Assembly: GCA_029582155.1 (NCBI GenBank)
Contig: CM055905.1
Coordinates: 65,335,356 to 65,399,355 of the forward strand
Length of the DNA: 64,000 nucleotides
Direction: 5' to 3'
Source: Panopea generosa
Taxonomy: Eukaryota; Mollusca; Bivalvia; Adapedonta; Hiatellidae
The position numbers and the translations under genes were made by a program. How positions within the stretch are numbered: position 1 is the first letter of the stretch; every line of letters begins with the position of its first letter. Shown piece after piece: positions 3,965 to 18,839 of this stretch. The notes below the pieces were generated by a model. The model was not told where the DNA came from. It searched no databases and worked only from the letters and a program-made list of their open reading frames with translations.

Positions 3965-4369
3965 CTGATGAACTAAATGACTGCTGAATAGGAACAGTGC
4001 TACCACTACCATCCACACACATGGACCCACCAATATTCAGCTCTCCGCCGAACACATTTATGGCCCCAGCGGCACCCGCCTTCAAAACACCATGGTTGGC
4101 AGTAATAGAAACTTGTTGGTTTGCAGTTGTCTGTTGGTTTGCACCCACCTGGTGGTTTGCAGCCATCTGTTGGTTTGCACCCATCTGTTGGTTTGCAGCC
4201 ACCTGATGGTTTGAAGACATCACTGCTGGAGGTGCTGGATACATAACTCCTTGCAGGTACCTATGACCGTATTGCGGTATATGTAGATACTGCAGCGGTT
4301 GGACTATGTCGAAGTTGATGCTCTGGATAGCTGCAACCGTAGATGGCTTAATTCGATATCTACTGGCAA
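3965..4369 (-). CDS. HEPN-Death gene, tail exon with ANQQ hexapeptide repeats
   Basis: Acceptor TTATTCACAG|TTGCC, 134 codons plus one base, strong donor TCAG|GTAAGC. It encodes VASRYRIKPSTVAAIQSINF, then a segment with five or six hexapeptides (ANQQMG, ANQQMA, ANHQVG, ANQQTT, ANQQVS) and a Gly-rich end (GAAGAINVFGGELNIGGS). If the donor is not used, translation stops six residues later (GKLPTG, stop at 3945-3947), so this could be the terminal exon of one isoform. No poly(A) signal is evident close behind, so I favour splicing to an exon beyond the left edge. Confidence 0.75.
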
Positions 4370-7300: not shown

Positions 7301-10300
7301 AGCAAATGATCCAAGAGAACCATCAAGATGTTGTAGAGTTTGTGGTTTATTTAATTTCTTACCATCCAATAAATCTCTAGAAACAATTTTTGAAGCCAAT
7401 TGTCGGTTTTTCAATTCTATAAACACGCCAGCCAGCAACAGCCTGGGATCTTCACCAAAACAGGCTGCCACCACATCATGCCATTTCTGTAACATGGTGA
7501 AAATACAACCCTGTACCTGAAAAATTGATAAAATTAATGTACAAAAATTATGACATAATTATCCTTTAAGACCCCAATCTGTTACATAATGTCTCGGAGT
7601 ATAAGCATTCACACTTATGCCAAGTTCCATGTATATAATGCAAAGTTTAAGACAAAATATGACCTTTTCACCCTGTAATATGACCTTGACCTTCAAGCTA
7701 GACACCCAATATGTTACGTACTGCCACAAAAGATAATCATGCGCATTTATGCCAAGTTCCATGCATATAAATGCAAGCAATGCACACTTACAAAACTTTA
7801 ATGCAAAGTTTAAGACAAAATATGACCTTTTTACCCTGTAATATGACCTTGACCTTCAAGCTAGAAGCCTGATCTGTTACATACTGCCACAGAGTATAAG
7901 CATGCACATTTATGTCAAATTCCATGCATATAGCTGCAAGCACTGCACATTGATAAACAACTTACACCAACACTTTTACGCAAATTAAGTTTAAGACAAA
8001 CTAGCAAGTTTGATAATAATCAGTTCAGAAGTTTAAGCGGAGCCAAGCTGACAAGAAGAATTATAATTGTAATAAGTAAAGGGCTGTAACTCTGCAGTAA
8101 GTCAATGGATCAGAAAGTGATGATAGTAAGAGTAACTGAACTTTATTCATACACCCTGACAAGTTTGGTCAAAATCAGTTGAAGTTTAAGTGAAAAACTG
8201 ACAATATCAGCCTTAGGTAGTATTAGGAGTAATATTTGTTATATTCATTGGATGATCACATGTTCAAAGATGACCTTCATTTATTTTACATCAATTATGA
8301 CAATCATATATCTCCTTCTCTACCAATCAGGGAAGTATCCAAAGTTGAAATAAGTATCACTCATAATTGATAATTATAAAACAAAATAGAATTTTAAACA
8401 AGAGTGTCACACTGGCCCGAATTTGCTCATGTGTGGAAGGGGAGACAAATTTTACAAAGCAAGAGCAATACTTCAGACATTTAAATTTGGTCAGTTGAGT
8501 AATTATAGATATATAAAACTGCTGTGTAAGTTTGGTGACTATCAACTGAAAACTTCAGTTGGTAGATTGCACATAATTTCAAATAACATAATTTTTTTAC
8601 AATTCAAGGGTTGTACTTCAATATTAATTATCCAATTTGACCTAAAATTTGTACAACAACTGTGCAAGTTTGGTGAGGATAAACATAAAACTGTATGTGG
8701 TAGAGTTGCACAAAAGGTCAAATGATGCACTATTTTGACAATTCAAGGGCCATTACTTCATAATATTATATGATTTGACCAGTTGAAGAACTTGTGAGGA
8801 CTAGAGTGAACATAATTTTTGATGATTTAAGGGACATAGCTACGGATAAAAATGATTCTATTTGGCCAGTTCAAGATCTTGTCCAAGATATTATGGTTAT
8901 ATAATTATATAACTGTAAGTTTAACAAAGATCAAAGAAAAACTATGATTTCTAGAGAGTACACAACATCAAATGACCCATGATTCAAGGGCCGTACTCCA
9001 ACAATATTTAACTGATTCAGCCTGAAAGAGTTATTTTAGTTTTACATGACATATAACTACTGAGTAAATGAAAACTGTGAGCTGAACATCAGAAATGAAT
9101 TATATTTTAACACAGTTTTCAACACGTGACAGGTTATATATATATATATATGGCATATCCATTTCTATCCACAAGGCTCGAACTCATGACCTCAGTGGTG
9201 AGAGGCAAGTGGTCGTCAGATGACACTGCCTTATACCACTCAGCCGGGCCGAAACCGTAGACATAATTATGACTTTTCATGGACATAAAAATGTTTGAAA
9301 ATTGTGCTACAGTGTTTACAAGAGAGGTTGATGGATGGGCAATGGACAAATTACCATGGCATAAGCCCTTTTGGCCTTTTGCCAGTGGAGCTTAAAAGAG
9401 CCAGTTATTCCAATACCTGGTGGGGATATATCAACTTCAGTCGTTCTATCTGCTTACGTTTGAAGTCCAAGAACGTGCCCACTTCTTCCCACTCAAGGCC
9501 TACAAAATCAATTTATAACAAAATTTATTAAATAATTCTAGCTAGTTATTCCAATACCTGGTGTGGATACATTTCTTTCAGTTGCTCTAACTGTTTATGT
9601 CTGAATTCCAGACACATGCCTACTGCCTCCGATTCATGGCCTATAAAATTAATTTATAACAAAACTTTTAATACAATTCTACCGCAGCGGTGGTCTATTG
9701 GTAGAACATCTGCCAAGCATACAGAAGGTTGTGGTTCGATCCTTGGCCAGGTCATATCAAAGACTTAGAAAAAGGTAATAGAAGCTTCTGCAGTTGGTGC
9801 TCAGCATTTAGAGGATAATTCTAGGTCTAGCTGGCCTGGTGTCAATATAATATGGCTGGGTGGGGTATCATACTCCAGCGTGACAGTGTTCAGAATACCA
9901 TCTAAATTAAACTCCTAATGATTGAAAAAATGTTGAAAGTTATATTAAACACCATACAATCAAATACTATTGATCTGGCCATTTGTTTCAGTGTGAAGAT
10001 TTTTTATATTTTAAAGAATGAAACTTAAGTTCAAAATTGAAAGATGAAGCACAATTATATATTTTGCTTAGATCTTTCTCGAGTTCTGAAACTTGAAAAT
10101 GAAAACTCCCTCATAACAACTATACTAGACCACTAGGTCGGAAACAGAAAATTTTGTAATTTTGGCTATTTGTTTCCATGGTAACAGAAACAACATTGTA
10201 AATGATAAACACACTTATGGCAAAAGGCACTACTGGACCACTAAGCACGTGTCCAAAGTTTATCTTAAATGGTATTGGAGTTTAAAGCAGAAAATGCATC

Positions 10301-13300: not shown

Positions 13301-16220
13301 AGGAGCTAAATATATATGTTTGACGCTGCTGCCGCCAATGGAAAAGCAACACCTTAATCTCGCTTTCACTCCTTCGTCGCGGCGAGACAAAAACTCTTTA
13401 AATGTCTTAAATAATAAACTCATTTTTAAAATGGATAAAAAGCATCTCATTATCATTTATAAATAAAATCTGAATGGTTTGGTATGTCAAATCGACCCAA
13501 ATGTGACAAATTCAATATCTTAATTAGAGTGGTCAACTTGAGATGAAATCCTCAATCTAAAAATAGACAGCACTTAAATACTGCTTAATAACCTTTACGC
13601 TGTCATTCAGACTTTTTCTAAAATGAAACAATTTTTTTAACGTGTAAACCTGTAAAACACATTAAATCAAAATCAAAATGAAACAACGCGACCCATTTAA
13701 TAGTAACATTATACGTCAAAAAATATGTGGCAATTTTAAGTGGGAAATCTATTTTAGTCTTACCTAGGTGCATAGCCCAAGTTAGAAAATCCCATTTCAA
13801 TATATTGTTTTGGCTTGTTGAATTAGATATCCTTTAGGCAATATGGGATCAGTGATTATATAAAGGCATGATACATTGCGAAAATGTTTAAAGCCAATTT
13901 TAAAATTTTGAAAAATCCCGATAAATTCACTTTAAAACTAATTTTATTTGTTTTTTTCTTATATACGACTTTGAACATGTAACATCTACTTATTTATGAG
14001 CTTCTAAATAAATATTTATACCTATCTCTCCGCTTAACGTTCGTAATTCCTTCTCACTCATTTCATTTGTTTGCCTTGGGCTGATAGGCTGGACATGCTG
14101 GGAACTCATTGGCTGAATAGCTGATAACTGAGCACTCACTGGTTGAATACCAGTGTACCCTGAATACTGACCACTCATTGGTTGAATACCGGTAAACTGG
14201 CCACTCATTAGCGGAATACCATTATACGGGTTACCTAATGATTGGTCATGCTGGGCACCAATTGGTTGGTAACCATTCCAAGGTCCTTGTTGTTGGGGAT
14301 ATCCACGGGCACTATCAGTCTGTAACGTTGACCCCTGACCGCCTAAAATAAATAACATTATGCATTATAATCTTTATCAACCTCCAATACTGAAGAGTTA
14401 CAAATAAAACACATGGAAAAAAAGCAACATTCAATTATACAAAACAAATATACAATACAGTACAATAAATACATAAAGTAGCACATGCATGCATGCTTTC
14501 ATGCCCAAACACACATGCGCGCACATGTGCGTTTGTACACAGATCCGTTCATACACGCTGAAAATTTATTCATTTATTTTACATTTTATATGAATTACAC
14601 TGCAATAAATATTACATACATATTATATTACGTAAATGTTATCAAATTCTCTCCTAAGAAGGCCATGTAGGAGAAAACATAGAGAACATATATTGTGTAT
14701 GTACCACAATCAAATTGAGGCCAAAACAATTAATCAAAAGCAGAAAACCTTCCAACGAAAAAAAAAGCATGAATAAATTTGGCTGGTCATTGCACGAAAC
14801 TTTTTTGAAAACTTCCCATTTTATTTCTTTTTGGCCTCTGTTGCTCCTAATAGATAGAAGATCCCCTTTAAAGGACCCAATCTAAACTATTATGACTTAA
14901 CATTGTTGCGGTAGACAAGAGAATGAGAATGTTTCACACAGTATTCTTATATAAAAATCAAAGTCCCTTTATTGAGCCCCAATTGACCCTGTCCCCTTCA
15001 TTTGAACACACTTGTAACCTCTCCTCATTTATACCCAATATATTTTTTTGAATACAGTAAAACCTGTATAAACAGTCACCTCCATTAAGCAGCCACTTGT
15101 CTTAAGCAGCCACATTTGTTATTTCCAATCAGCAAATTAACCTGCATTAAACAACAACCTGTCTTAAAATGCCACTTTTACTCCTTCCCTTGACTCGTTG
15201 CTTAACAATCGTGAAACATCGGGTATTTCCGTATCCTCCGTAGAATACACCTCGTGTATAGCTCTAGAATACACCAACGCGAATCGCCTGTGTTACAAGT
15301 CTGTGTTCATTCGCGTGAAAGTAACAAATAATGTATCCGTCATTAAATTGATTATATATGGCGTTGTTATATCGATTTTTTTATTTATACACTCGACATG
15401 GGTCATATTTATAGGGGAATTTAAAATATCAGTCTTGATTAACAAACGTTTATATTTTCAACGTACATGTATATAAACAGGTTGCATAAGGGGGCCGCCA
15501 TTTTACTTTATCATGTGACTGAAAGTATTTCCAAAATGGCGCCTTATTATGTCAGAGGTCTATTGCGTAGCATAAAGGCCGAGGTGATCAGATTGGTTGC
15601 TTAAGACAGGTTTGACTGTATTAACAATTCTATTCACCACATATTCAGGGTTGGGAGAATCATGGTTGATGAAATTTTTTATGGTCAATCATTACAGTGC
15701 CTTCAAGTTCACTGTAGATGCCAAGAGATTTAAACTTGCAACCCCTGGATTGACTATCTATCCACTGCAATACCGCCTCATTAAACATTTATATATTCAT
15801 TACGTATTTAAAGTCATAAAGAGTACATTCCATAATGGCAGATAATATAGGGTTAAATATAATATAATTTTGAAATTTGCGATCATATATATAATCTATG
15901 AGGTTTTAAAGGACACATTTTTCTAAACCGCGACACCAAAGGTGAAGTTTTTTAAACAAATCTGCGATCATTAAAGTTACTTGAGCAAATATTGTTAAAA
16001 ATGAACTTACCGTTTAGACGAAAGCTGCATATCAGCAAATGATGAGCTATAAAAGTAGTTTCTAATGAATCTCAAACTAAACCACAAAATTGTTCAAAAT
16101 ATCTAGTACACTTTTTTTACCGACAGTATAATAATGCAGTTTTTGATACCAACATATCTAAGAGCACCCACCAACCAATAAAATCACAGGAAATTTCTGA
16201 AGGCCATTGGAATGGGTTAG

Positions 16221-16256
<36 letters not shown>

Positions 16257-18839
16257 TGGTACATTTCTATTTCAGAACATGAAAACCAAATAATTACTGT
16301 ATCAAATGTACAACACTATCAACCAACCATGTTGTTTGGCAAAGAAATCTCCGAGTAGCTTCTTGATTTCCTGTATTTCCTTATGAAAGGTCTCCATCTT
16401 TTTCATAATCTTCCCCTGAACATCTTCACCATTCTTTATATGAGCACATACCTAGAGTTAACAGTTAAAAACAATTCACATTTGGCTAATGAAAAAATTC
16501 AAATGATTTCATATATATCTTTTTTTCATTGTATACTTTATTAATACATCGTTATATATCCACCTCTTCTTATCCACTTCTTATAACAAACCTTTTCAAC
16601 TGTTTACTTATTTTTATTCTACATTTAATTTTTTAGGTGATGAAAAACATAATATTGTCTTACAAGAACATTATAATATCAGCCTAATGGTTTTCAACAC
16701 CTGATTGGATCTCAAATCTTTAGTAATGAAATATACAACACCCCTCATACCCCTCCTGTTGCTAAATATTCAATCATGACTCCAAAGGACCATAAACAAA
16801 CTACTTTTTTTATGGCAGCTAGACACTTAAAATGGCGGAATGGGCATATTAAAGATTAGACATGGTATATATACTACCATAGCATTGATAGAGAGTCTGC
16901 CTCACATGTAGAAGGTCGTGGGTTTGATCTCTGGCCACGTCATACCAAACACTTCAAAATCATCGCATACCAAATTTGAAAGGATAGTTTTAGGTTTGGT
17001 CAGCCGGATGTCTATAATATGACTGGGTTTGGTATCATATCATATGTCTACGGCGTGATACTCCAGTGTTGTAGATTACTGTCTCGCTATGTCTAAAAAT
17101 ATGACTAAAAAGGGAACTCCATGACCAACTGCTCTAAGATTCGAGTTTTGCTCGCTCCAAATACGCTATGTGAGAAAGTTTGCCATTTACTTGCTTAAGG
17201 ACGGTGTTTCTACTCAGATTCATTCTGATGTCTTCTTCCACCAATAAAACTGGATAGCAATATATTACCAGAAATGTGTTGAAAACGGCATTAAACCCCA
17301 TTCAAAAAAAAGAAAAGAAAGCGACGCTAGACACTATACAACAATATTGTATATAAACAAACCTCCTCCACAGACTCTTGGGTTGCAATGGTCCTCAAAT
17401 CATTCTCAATTCTCGATACCTGCTCTTGAATCGAGTGTATATCTGGGTTATTTGTGTCCCCGTGTGCTGCGTCAGGTGCATCTTTGGCATCAACCTACAA
17501 AACATTGAACATTTCTGCGGTCAATTGTAGTGTATTTTAAAATTGTGCATTGGCTTCCTTAATAGGTGCTTGATTAATAATTTTACAGAGGGCTTCATGC
17601 CTGCTTCAGTAATAGGGGTATCCTCTATATATGTGTTTTGCTTCGTGTAACAATCCTAAAATTGCTTCAAAACAAATTTGATGAAAATCTATCGAGGAGT
17701 TTCAGAGACAAAATTGTTTATAGAAATTGTTGATGAATTGATGGACAGGATGGACATGAATGACGGATAGATGGGATGGACATAGATGGACAGGATGGGA
17801 ATTTATTACTTGTGTAGCTAAATTTTAGGCACTCAACATATTTTAGCCACAAAAAGGCCATTTTTAAGTGTCTAAAAATAGCCACATTATTTTTAATCAA
17901 TTGTTTTTCAACCGTCAAAAAAATTGCTAATCCTTAACCCTAGATGCTTAATTACCCATTTGTGACATAATTGAGTATTGTTGGGTTAATGTTTATACCC
18001 AACAATACTGTACTGTCATACAAATAACACCTTAAAGTACTATAGGCATGTACAGAGAGACGGAAGATGGATATAAAGCAATTCACAATAGCTTACAGTC
18101 ATGTGCCTTTGGCTTTGATAAAATTATATGGCAGCAATTATGATAAAATAGATGTTCTAGGCGATACCTTTAGGTGTAAGCTTTGCAGGGATTCCTGTAT
18201 ACTTGTCAAGTCTTCTTTAAGCTGTTCTTTCAAACCCTCCTTTTCATCTTCTTGCCATTTTTTGAACAAGGCTAGCATCCGTTTTTCGCAATCTCCTTGA
18301 GGTTCTAATTGTCCCAGTTTTAAGTCACTTATTTTTTTCTTGACCTTATCTGCATAACTTGGACTTATATTTCCAGCAATGCTCAACAATATACGCTCGA
18401 TATCCATCCAAAATTCTTGAAATTCCTCTCGTCCCATCTGAGCCTTTGTTCCATGTGCTGTTACACGATTTCGAATATCTTTTAAGCGAAGAAGTTCCGC
18501 TCCTAGCGTTGTGTCAGAAGAGTCAGGCGGGGGCTTTTCCCATGTGCATAGCGGTGGCTCAACATCTGGACAAATATTTCGCAATAGGGTGATGAGTAAA
18601 GATATATCAAATAAATTTGGATCAGGGTTTGAAGCAGTCACCAGTTCAAACTGTGCTGGATTTAAAATCTTTCTCTGTTTTAAAAGATTAAATGTTGGAT
18701 GACGACTTATAAAGAAAGGCTGTACATCAGCGCGAGGAATTTTTTGATAGAATGTCTCTATCAGAGTTTCTGTTCCTACATCGACAACTAATGAAATGAT
18801 TCGATAGAAATGTGACGAGTCCTGCAGGTTGTCAGACAT
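3965..18839 (-). CDS. HEPN (DZIP3-type)-coiled-coil-Death domain protein, multi-exon, 3' end off window
   Basis: Seven coding exons (18168-18839, 17363-17494, 16328-16451, 14022-14342, one of 9558-9640 or 9417-9499, 7363-7516, 3965-4369) join in frame through GT-AG introns for 630 codons plus one base. Residues 1-155 form a DZIP3-type HEPN domain (FDISLLITLLRNICP and LLRLKDIRNRVTAHG, with R123 and H129 as the R-x5-H ribonuclease-type motif). Residues 160-309 are charged and coiled-coil, 310-400 a Gln/Pro/Ser-rich linker, about 405-485 a Death domain, and 520-560 hexapeptide ANQQ repeats. No signal peptide or membrane segment is present, so it is probably cytosolic. HEPN folds of this family occur with Death or NACHT domains in invertebrate immune proteins. 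An adaptor or effector role in immunity or cell death is inferred. Transcription is divergent from the MEGF9-like gene. Confidence 0.82.
4532..4715. mobile_element. MITE family 1 (CAGTCAAACCTGT ends)
   Basis: About 185 bp with inverted ends ACAGACAAACCTGTC... and ...ACACAGGTTTGACTGT, and a body rich in 'ttaagcagccagtcaagg' and 'aagacaggtggttgctt'. It is one of at least seven copies in the window. It sits 163 bp upstream (minus-strand sense) of the tail exon of the HEPN-Death gene. Confidence 0.8.
4960..5880. repeat. Diverged bivalve repeat block with a 60-bp tandem array
   Basis: Diverged units of the 'caagtttgatgaagatcaaatgaa...gtgctagagtgcacac' type. Within it, 5145-5320 holds three tandem copies of a roughly 60-bp unit (AACAATAAAGTTCAAAAGGG core). 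All lie in an intron of the HEPN-Death gene and are not coding. Confidence 0.65.
5990..6168. mobile_element. MITE family 1, inverted copy
   Basis: Same family as 4532-4715 but in the opposite orientation. It starts at AGCAAACCTGTGTAAATGATC and ends at GACAGGTTTGACTG. Confidence 0.78.
6248..6790. repeat. Dispersed repeat family R5 (about 550-650 bp)
   Basis: Shares long stretches with 13390-13940, 54120-54365 and 42890-43040, such as TAAATACTGCTTGCCAACCT and the 'gacagcacttaaatactg' core. Type not determined; possibly a non-autonomous DNA element. Confidence 0.65.
6895..7100 (+). mobile_element. tRNA-derived SINE, family 3, diverged
   Basis: Begins with a tRNA-like head (GCGGTTAGCTCAGCCAGTCC), followed by the family body 'ccggccacagtctccgtgatgattgatatac...cattgcatctcattgtcatttgtctc'. 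A degraded copy in an intron. Confidence 0.7.
7363..7516 (-). CDS. HEPN-Death gene, second half of Death domain
   Basis: Acceptor TTTTTCAG|GTACAG, 51 codons plus one base, donor GATG|GTAAGA. It encodes VQGCIFTMLQKWHDVVAACF, then GEDPRLLLAGVFIELKNRQL and ASKIVSRDLLD. The pattern MLQKW...DPRLLLAGVFIELKNRQLASKI matches helices 4-6 of Death domains, including the conserved Trp. Phase 0 in and 1 out fit both neighbours. Confidence 0.85.
7560..7980 (-). repeat. Bivalve tandem repeat, three copies
   Basis: Three copies of a roughly 180-bp unit with 'atatgaccttgaccttcaagctag' and 'gccaagttccatgcatata'. Related in style to the block at 150-1215. Confidence 0.7.
8400..9090 (+). repeat. Diverged bivalve repeat units
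   Basis: About four units with 'gtgcaagtttggtgaggat', 'attcaagggccgtac' and 'tggttatataactac'. Intron of the HEPN-Death gene; no coding signal. Confidence 0.65.
9095..9262 (-). mobile_element. tRNA-derived SINE, family 2, with (TA)n
   Basis: Reverse-strand copy: the tRNA B-box-like GGTCATGAGTTCGAGCC and the family tail (GTGTTGAAAAC at the far end) are present. A short (TA)9 tract lies at 9135-9152. Confidence 0.65.
9417..9499 (-). CDS. HEPN-Death gene, alternative Death-domain exon copy 2
   Basis: 83-nt exon (acceptor TTTTGTAG|GCCTTG, donor CACCAG|GTATTG) encoding LEWEEVGTFLDFKRKQIERL then KLIYPHQ. It is entered in phase 1 and left in phase 0, as required by its neighbours (14022-14342 and 7363-7516). 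The W-E-E-V-G-x-x-L-x-F pattern is the usual start of a Death domain, so this looks like the canonical copy. Confidence 0.8.
9558..9640 (-). CDS. HEPN-Death gene, alternative Death-domain exon copy 1
   Basis: 83-nt exon (acceptor TTTATAG|GCCATG, donor CACCAG|GTATTG) encoding HESEAVGMCLEFRHKQLEQL then KEMYPHQ. It is a tandem duplicate of 9417-9499 with the same length, phases and splice flanks; 15 of 27 residues are identical. Using both copies would shift the frame (166 nt), so the two are expected to be mutually exclusive. This copy lacks the Trp of copy 2 and may have altered surface contacts in helices 2-3. Confidence 0.75.
9681..9965 (+). mobile_element. tRNA-derived SINE, family 1, diverged
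   Basis: tRNA-like head with A box (TGGTCTATTGGTAGAAC) and B box (GGTTCGATCC), family body (GCTCAGCATTTAGAGGA, GGGTGGGGTATCATAC) and tail AACACCATACAATCAAA. It lies 40 bp upstream (minus sense) of alternative exon copy 1 of the HEPN-Death gene. Confidence 0.85.
9966..10551. other. Intron, no gene seen
   Basis: AT-rich intron sequence with only short open frames of no protein character. Confidence 0.5.
10552..10812. repeat. Minisatellite, 43-bp unit x 6
   Basis: Six head-to-tail copies with core AATCTGTCTAAATGGCCTAC, in an intron of the HEPN-Death gene. Confidence 0.9.
11020..12185. repeat. Region with inverted-repeat elements (about 335-bp fold-back at 11848-12182)
   Basis: The segment starting CAATAATCTGTACACTTA at 11848 is matched in inverted orientation by the segment ending at 12182, with 40 or more aligned bases at each end. 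A related copy of the 'actatgaagtatcagcttt' part lies at 11037. This is consistent with MITE-like elements. Between them there is unique AT-rich intron. Confidence 0.55.
12186..13000. other. Intron; A-rich low complexity at 12840-12990
   Basis: No gene is seen. Two copies of 'actttaacaagtatttctatgtaaaacatatt' precede a long A-rich tract. Confidence 0.55.
13003..13305. repeat. Tandem duplication, about 178-bp period
   Basis: Two copies of a segment containing AATGCAGGGTGTTAGTTG and CAAGTATGAGTGTCCTAGCA, at about 13011 and 13189. Confidence 0.8.
13390..13940. repeat. Dispersed repeat family R5, second copy
   Basis: Aligns by eye with 6248-6790 over most of its length, including GACAGCACTTAAATACTGCT. 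Confidence 0.65.
14022..14342 (-). CDS. HEPN-Death gene, Gln/Pro/Ser linker exon and start of Death domain
   Basis: Acceptor TTTTAG|GCGGTC, donor ATAG|GTATAA, phase 1 in and out. It encodes a low-complexity linker with imperfect repeats of the type TGIQPMSGQ / GIQPVSAQ / AIQPMSSQ. This is followed by TNEMSEKELRTLSGEIG, which fits the first helix of a Death domain completed by the next exons. The linker is probably disordered. Confidence 0.85.
14360..15050. other. Intron, no gene seen
   Basis: AT-rich intron with a short run of alternating purine/pyrimidine (GCATGCATGC, 14488-14497). No exon signal. Confidence 0.5.
15056..15620. mobile_element. MITE family 1 copy split by a 390-bp insertion
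   Basis: The two MITE halves (15056-15205 and 15605-15620) are separated by 15206-15595. The host MITE's own 9 bases GTTGCTTAA are duplicated on both sides of the insert. Confidence 0.85.
15206..15595. mobile_element. 390-bp element nested in MITE, 9-bp target duplication
   Basis: Flanked by GTTGCTTAA at 15197-15205 and 15596-15604. Its ends are short inverted repeats (CAATC... and ...GATTG). A 9-bp duplication is typical of Mutator-like or Merlin elements and lies near the 8 bp of hAT; the family is not determined. No transposase is encoded, so it is non-autonomous. Its base composition is less AT-rich than the surroundings. Confidence 0.75.
15622..16220. other. Intron, no gene seen
   Basis: No exon or RNA gene supported. 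Contains a partial repeat ('gttgatgaa...ggattgactatctatcc'). Confidence 0.45.
16223..16254. repeat. (TA)n microsatellite
   Basis: About 16 TA dinucleotides, about 75 bp below the coiled-coil exon at 16328-16451. Confidence 0.95.
16328..16451 (-). CDS. HEPN-Death gene, second coiled-coil exon
   Basis: Acceptor AACTCTAG|GTATGTG, 41 codons plus one base, donor CATG|GTTGGT (a weak donor, the least certain junction). It encodes VQGKIMKKMETFHKEIQEIK and KLLGDFFAKQH, an amphipathic helix with Leu/Ile/Met heptads that likely mediates oligomerisation. Phase 0 in and 1 out agree with both neighbours. Confidence 0.75.
16866..17310 (+). mobile_element. Two fused SINE copies (family 1 then family 2)
   Basis: 16866-17098 is a diverged family 1 SINE (tRNA head, GGTCGTGGGTTTGATC B box, GGTATCATA body). 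17110-17310 is a family 2 SINE 3' part (GCTCGCTCCAAATACG, CTCAGATTCATTCTGA, ACGGCATTAAACCCCATT) with an A-rich tail. It lies directly before the coiled-coil exon 17363-17494. Confidence 0.75.
17363..17494 (-). CDS. HEPN-Death gene, coiled-coil exon
   Basis: 44 codons, phase 0 on both sides: acceptor TTTTGTAG|GTTGAT and donor GAG|GTTTGT. It encodes VDAKDAPDAAHGDTN..., then IHSIQEQVSRIENDLRTIA, a heptad-patterned helix. It was found by following splice signals and frame; there is no start codon of its own. Confidence 0.78.
17500..18160. other. Intron with GATGGACAGGATGG low-complexity tract
   Basis: Intron between the HEPN exon and the first coiled-coil exon. 17738-17805 is a short imperfect repeat of GATGGACAGGATGG. 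No gene seen. Confidence 0.55.
18168..18839 (-). CDS. HEPN-Death gene, first coding exon (HEPN domain)
   Basis: 224 codons from ATG at 18839 to the donor AAG|GTATCG. The HEPN_DZIP3 family features are visible: HPTFNLLKQRKILNPAQFEL, FDISLLITLLRNICP, TWEKPPP and LLRLKDIRNRVTAHG, then EEFQEFWMDIERILLSIAG. R123-N124 and H129 give the R-x5-H motif shared by HEPN ribonucleases. Residues 160-224 are strongly charged and helical. An upstream in-frame TTG at 18851 is not a likely start. The phase-0 end matches the next exon. Confidence 0.9.

Follow-up and report, generated by a model that had tools for sequence, protein, structure and literature searches.

The exon arrays of arthropod Dscam are large, and RNA pairing is part of their control. 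The mutually exclusive homologous exons of this gene have been tied to immunity (PMC13428168), and control of the arrays has been described as partly RNA-pairing governed (PMC8042237), whereas the bivalve locus described here has a pair of exons for which no clear pairing was found. Another case is provided by exons 4a and 4b of OGDH, which are used exclusively and whose branch points are described as lying 25-41 nt from the donor (PMC7969005); the predicted distance in the present pair is likewise <50 nt. In vertebrates a donor-branch point distance under ~50 nt is held to hinder joint use (PMC7969005, PMC5740500), and human clusters of the steric-interference type have been put at 57, or 9% (PMC5740500). 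For OGDH and the human steric clusters exclusivity has been shown by RNA, whereas for the present pair it is argued from sequence, and the segment concerned lies in a Death domain.

Among bivalves, the duplicated exon 10 of the oyster alternative oxidase (PMC5589949) similarly provides two protein versions, of which one stays closer to relatives and the other is more derived, with exon copies that are reported as 63.5% and 65.9% identical in two oysters, compared with 61 of 84 positions here. That report calls it the first case in a mollusc giving a stress-adaptive variant (PMC5589949). The oxidase exon is described as terminal, carrying a stop codon of its own and involving an alternative 3′ splice site, whereas the exons considered here form an internal, frame-locked pair. 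An apparently exclusive, non-homologous-looking exon pair has also been found in an oyster sodium channel (PMC5295241). The present pair is of a known kind. Duplicated and alternatively used exons are already known in oysters (PMC5589949). The gene in which it lies recalls the bivalve expansions of DZIP3/hRUL138-like HEPN and NACHT/Death proteins (PMC9646362) in its HEPN type, with an Rx4-6H motif, and in its tandem copies. According to that account, DZIP3-type HEPN proteins (Rx4-6H), alone or with NACHT, are expanded in a pearl oyster and have been proposed to be innate-immunity RNases (PMC9646362); exon swapping is not mentioned in its main text, where the string 'splic' occurs 0 times. Among the open-access papers listed in literature searches, as represented by the starts of their abstracts, none described a Death domain swapped by exclusive exons, which is not proof of absence from print.

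The window analysed here, a stretch of 64,000 nt from Panopea generosa, carries two similar exons, A and B, which probably constitute a real mutually exclusive pair derived from a 141-bp tandem duplication, one of the two being taken into each mRNA. The features concerned are as follows.

Exon A, 9640-9558, minus strand: 83 nt, Death-domain helices 2-3, version without Trp, HESEAVGMCLEFRHKQLEQLKEMYPHQ
Intervening intron, 9500..9557, minus strand: 58 nt
Exon B, 9499-9417, minus strand: 83 nt, Death-domain helices 2-3, standard version, LEWEEVGTFLDFKRKQIERLKLIYPHQ
First 141-bp repeat unit, 9541..9681, minus strand: 41 nt of intron, exon A and 17 nt of intron
Second 141-bp repeat unit, 9400..9540, minus strand: carries exon B

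Both exons are of the GT-AG type, enter in phase 1 and leave in phase 0, and have identical acceptors (TAG/GCC) and donors (CACCAG/GTATTG), with GTATTGG found 3′ of each. The upstream exon ends at 14022 in phase 1, supplying one base of a split codon, and the downstream exon begins at 7516 in phase 0, at a codon boundary. An earlier note on this DNA had described two 83-nt exons 58 nt apart with the same phases and splice context, a description that is exact to the base, and had given the flanking junctions and their phases as they are found here. Its reasoning on the reading frame also holds: in translations of the joined exons, the frame stays open with either A or B by itself, and A plus B or the skipping of both leads to early stops, so that the frame is kept when exactly one exon is used and lost with both or neither. 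Retention of the 58-nt intron would join A and B in a 224-nt segment that restores the length modulo 3, and was rejected as a route to joint use because a stop is reached at the intron's fourth codon (GTA TTG GAA TAA).

When the exons are set against the sequence features used to recognize such pairs (PMC3228551), they agree in length (83/83 nt), splice-site type and frame, contain no in-frame stop, and are alike at 61 of 84 nt and 15 of 27 residues, which makes them a well-formed candidate for mutually exclusive splicing. The same features are reported for only 90 of 16180 exons not exclusively spliced, in six genes, on the fruit-fly X chromosome (PMC3228551); this low background rate makes the prior favourable for an exclusive pair, although it comes from another phylum.

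At an offset of 141 bp, 110 of 141 positions are alike; the mean over the whole window is 40 (sd 10). As many as 493 window positions score at least 100 at this offset, many of them inside other tandem repeats, and the similarity score alone is therefore not unique. Identity between the repeat units amounts to 34/41 in the upstream intron, 61/84 in the exon (shared G counted) and 16/17 in the downstream intron. Sequences that resemble short interspersed elements derived from tRNA, with putative A/B-box-like stretches, flank the exon pair at 9770-9683 and 9250-9170. In the alignment of the three gene copies, the former directly adjoins the beginning of the duplicated unit in each.

The genome searched was the 1.47-Gb assembly of 39 contigs. 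With the A version as query (E<=1), the six matches listed represent three A/B pairs. Each pair belongs to one of three gene copies (C12:65.01, 65.16 and 65.34 Mb), which share a contig at distances of ~144 and 188 kb and differ from each other by insertions and deletions. An open frame and the AG and GT have been kept in all six exons. The copies are 95-99% identical over most aligned stretches and 91-94% over some (off-register repeat matches at 74-82% were set aside); being near-identical, they are not independent witnesses. No third copy of the exon was seen among the six genome-wide matches listed, in a search that scores the best candidates only, and no retrocopy showing the spliced order among the genome matches listed. 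With the B version as query, the 34 other matches listed (43 minus the 9 belonging to the three genes) included no relative with the same split and a single exon: all 34 cross both exon boundaries in one open frame, and hence none shares the split. A relative with a single version of the exon, by which the duplication could be dated or polarised, was not found in this genome.

The remainder of the gene, as far as it could be followed within the window, consists of the following exons.

18168..18839, minus strand: first coding exon found (ATG start), HEPN_DZIP3, phase 0 out, donor AAAG/GTATCG
17363..17494, minus strand: predicted second coding exon, coiled coil by eye, phase 0-0, TAG/GTTGAT and GAG/GTTTGT
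16328..16451, minus strand: predicted third coding exon, coiled coil by eye, phase 0-1, TAG/GTATGT and ATG/GTTGGT, phases fitting its neighbours
14022..14342, minus strand: Q-rich linker and Death-domain helix 1, phase 1-1
7363..7516, minus strand: Death-domain helices 4-6, phase 0-1, copies at C12:65154406 and C12:65010829
3965..4249, minus strand: tentative next exon, Q/N-rich, with AINVFGGELN, phase 1-1, AAG/GAGTTA and CAG/GTAAGC, joined frame open

With either A or B included, the seven joined exons provide 1771 nt of open frame with 0 stops. Splice sites outside the Death domain were picked by eye; the reading frame of 17363..17494 aligns in both other gene copies. A Pfam search with the 4249-3965 exon gave no match, and further exons may lie beyond it. 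The HEPN exon matches Pfam PF18738 at 93.4 bits (cut-off 27) and contains the Rx5H motif RNRVTAH, which fits Rx4-6H; the HEPN protein is probably an RNase. The predicted order is thus HEPN domain, probable coiled coil, Q-rich linker and Death domain.

By Pfam alone, the Death-domain assignment is weak. Against Pfam Death (PF00531), the B form scores 19.0 bits, under the gathering cut-off of 22.6, and the A form has no match; with a longer construct the values are 16.8 bits for B and none for A. A genome search with the B version detected distant single-exon domains, and all four of those sent to Pfam pass the Death cut-off (37.9-46.2 bits). A profile of eight other Death domains of the genome gives 42.5 bits for B and 32.2 bits for A, figures biased toward B because the profile was built on relatives found by the B version. 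The eight were drawn from 15 translated loci, of 21 loci designated L019-L039; those left out were L024, L025, L033 and L037 (translated from the wrong strand), L035 (short), and L023 and L026 (close to L022 and L034). When residues 15-41 were shuffled, mean scores fell to 10.1 bits (B) and 11.5 bits (A), and none of 300 shuffles reached the real score for either form. Both exons thus contribute Death-domain sequence, with the better fit on the side of B. A profile with A and B included matches the Death domains of known structure in CRADD, ankyrin, FADD and PIDD. The best match of this combined profile is to the CRADD/RAIDD Death domain (PDB 2of5, 2o71; E 1.8e-17); the profile itself is made up mainly of other domains of this genome, the A and B forms being 2 of its 10 rows.

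The earlier note placed the swap in helices 2-3 of a Death domain and quoted 12 residues; the placement stands, and the extent is wider, the swapped segment comprising domain residues 15-41, of which 12 of 27 differ between A and B. Helix limits were assigned from known Death domains, which we take to apply here. At the helix-2 Trp position, W is found in 6/8 relatives and Y in 2/8; B has W and A has Ser, and A could consequently be either specialised or in decay. The segment carries a net charge of 0 in B and -2 in A, and conserved columns are not spared by the differences between A and B (permutation p 0.36). Of the two forms, B is most likely standard and A derived.

In assembled Death domains, the type Ib surface is described as formed by helices 2 and 3, the IIIa surface by helix 3, and the Ia surface by helices 1 and 4 (PMC8403095, PMC7054835); the 2-3 and 1-2 loops, which lie within or next to the swapped segment here, are counted in type II (PMC8403095). 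Since the duplicated exon coincides nearly exactly with helices 2-3, the two forms should share the Ia surface and most of type II and differ in Ib and IIIa. It is proposed that the 141-bp tandem duplication gave rise to the exon pair and that each mRNA takes one exon, which would yield two HEPN/Death-domain proteins sharing helix 1 and helices 4-6 and differing in helices 2-3. The choice would alter the type Ib/IIIa face and, with it, the partners with which the probable RNase assembles. Redirected partner choice or a capping form may be regarded as natural readings of such a swap; alternatively, A may fold less stably for want of the Trp. A more speculative and rather unlikely idea is that the swap acts as a polarity switch in Death-domain assembly: B would extend an oligomer at both ends and A would join without passing on, or pass to another partner, so that splicing alone would decide between a clustered, active HEPN RNase and a capped, silent one. 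Should both exons be used, a single gene would provide two adaptor versions that differ on one Death-domain binding face only, a natural swap experiment on Death-domain partner choice coupled to a probable RNase, and a simple, testable case of splice choice in intracellular immune signalling outside arthropods and vertebrates.

How exclusivity might be imposed can be approached from the intervening intron. The earlier note suggested that this intron may be too short to splice. Its length is indeed below all of 69 intron estimates from the myosin and dynein genes of this genome (77-5931 nt; smallest 77, 77, 77, 146 and 166), which were taken as gaps between neighbouring profile matches, so that very short introns tend to be missed. 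The sample covered 62/81 myosin and 101/116 dynein rows; the 19 remaining myosin rows added one pair (1221 nt), and the 15 remaining dynein rows, checked by eye, showed none. Behind the three 77-nt estimates are repeated fragments of dynein, possibly not genes. Approximately three dozen matches to positions ~220-313 of the dynein heavy-chain N2 profile were observed over many contigs (e.g. C9, C16, C20, C26); they are alike in score and many have an internal stop, as if carried by a repeat.

Within the 58-nt intron, the sole suitably placed yUnAy match predicts a branch point at a distance of 29 nt from the donor and 28 nt from the acceptor. No adenine that keeps 15 nt or more clear of the acceptor is further than about 43 nt from the donor. 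The distance from donor to branch point is accordingly <50 nt, where the branch point is a predicted one and the limit, derived from vertebrates, may not be that of this animal. Joining of A to B would be inefficient because the short intron puts the donor of A too near any branch point for B (29 nt with the best match, and no more than about 43 nt with any adenine of the kind just described), and products that include both exons or neither would be frameshifted and would decay, loss of frame acting as a second safeguard.

Two other bases of exclusivity were considered. Incompatibility between U2- and U12-type splice sites was ruled out, the same GTATTG donor and TAG acceptor being present at both exons. 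Docking/selector pairing between the exon flanks and distant intron sites was examined for five elements in two introns, with 12 approximate shuffles each; one of the ten tests, the whole 58-nt intron against the downstream intron, barely beat its best shuffle (-23.2 vs -22.9) and the other nine did not, and this marginal result was not taken as evidence of RNA pairing as the cause.

The main alternative to a mutually exclusive pair is that B is constitutive and A a dead or rarely used duplicate that is open by chance. This we consider unlikely, though it has more in its favour than the other alternatives. In addition to the absence of the helix-2 Trp and the 10 bits by which A falls below B in the eight-relative profile, the branch-point region upstream of A is poor: in the 80 nt before the exon, yUnAy is matched only at distances of 3 and 8 nt from the acceptor, with an AG at -25. 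In simulations that ignored indels, a neutral A was still open, with AG and GT, in 12% of cases at 0.3 changes per site, 5% at 0.5 and 3% at 0.65, which is not negligible. Against these points, A and B are intact in all three gene copies found, the splice-site flanks of A and B are alike at 50 of 58 positions, and the exon A of the window differs from that of the third gene copy by two silent changes and one replacement change.

Substitutions between A and B bear on the same alternative, and the outcome depends upon the clock. Between the exons, 10 of 16.2 silent sites have changed, compared with 13 of 67.8 replacement sites (Fisher p 0.001), the per-site excess of silent over replacement changes arguing against a dead duplicate. 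If the A branch were neutral and received half of the silent divergence (point estimate), ~30 replacement changes would be expected upon it, compared with 13 on both branches together; at the lower 95% bound of silent divergence (0.35), the expectation drops to 13.9 (P 0.46), with which a neutral A is compatible. When the flanking intron is used as the clock (8 of 58 positions differ), 9.4 replacement changes are expected and 13 seen, a comparison that gives no sign that replacement changes were constrained. Silent sites have diverged far beyond the intron halves of the same 141-bp unit (p 0.0002; 9681-9400), a gap that we cannot explain fully: splicing signals or gene conversion may have kept the intron halves alike, or the exons may have been driven apart.

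It is decidedly improbable that both exons are real and that the pair serves mainly as an off switch, in which joint inclusion or skipping would produce stop-containing mRNA that is degraded, thereby tuning the amount of the RNase-type protein. The A+B and double-skip products do both stop early, and in human clusters of this kind joined reads have been reported for 83 of 377 (PMC5740500). Joint inclusion should be hard across a 58-nt intron, however, and an off switch would presumably need no two divergent coding versions.

The 98-99% likeness of window and second copy over most aligned stretches is within the range of different haplotypes of a variable animal. It might thus be supposed that the three copies are an assembly illusion, or that the locus is not an active gene, a suggestion we regard as very remote given that ~144 and 188 kb separate the copies along a single contig, that insertions and deletions distinguish them, that the seven predicted exons read through without a stop whichever of A and B is included, that the gene starts with a HEPN domain in which the motif is present, and that the tandem pair lies inside each copy, independent of copy number. 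A mutually exclusive pair, with one exon per mRNA, remains the reading to which we give most weight.

Several further features of the gene and its surroundings were observed. The HEPN frame at 18839-18141 differs from each of the other two copies (L010 and L008) by 11 replacement and 2 silent changes, a per-site rate higher at replacement than at silent sites on counts that are few. An AINVFxGxxN motif is common to the tentative exon at 4249-3965 (minus strand) and a same-strand open frame, L066, located ~1.36 kb past the window start, which has no Pfam match. To us the motif recalls short amyloid-type signalling motifs. Downstream of the last exon found, Tc1-like transposase frames occupy 2524-1416 on the minus strand, the frame at 2524-1943 containing a match to HTH_Tnp_Tc3_2 (51.2 bits).
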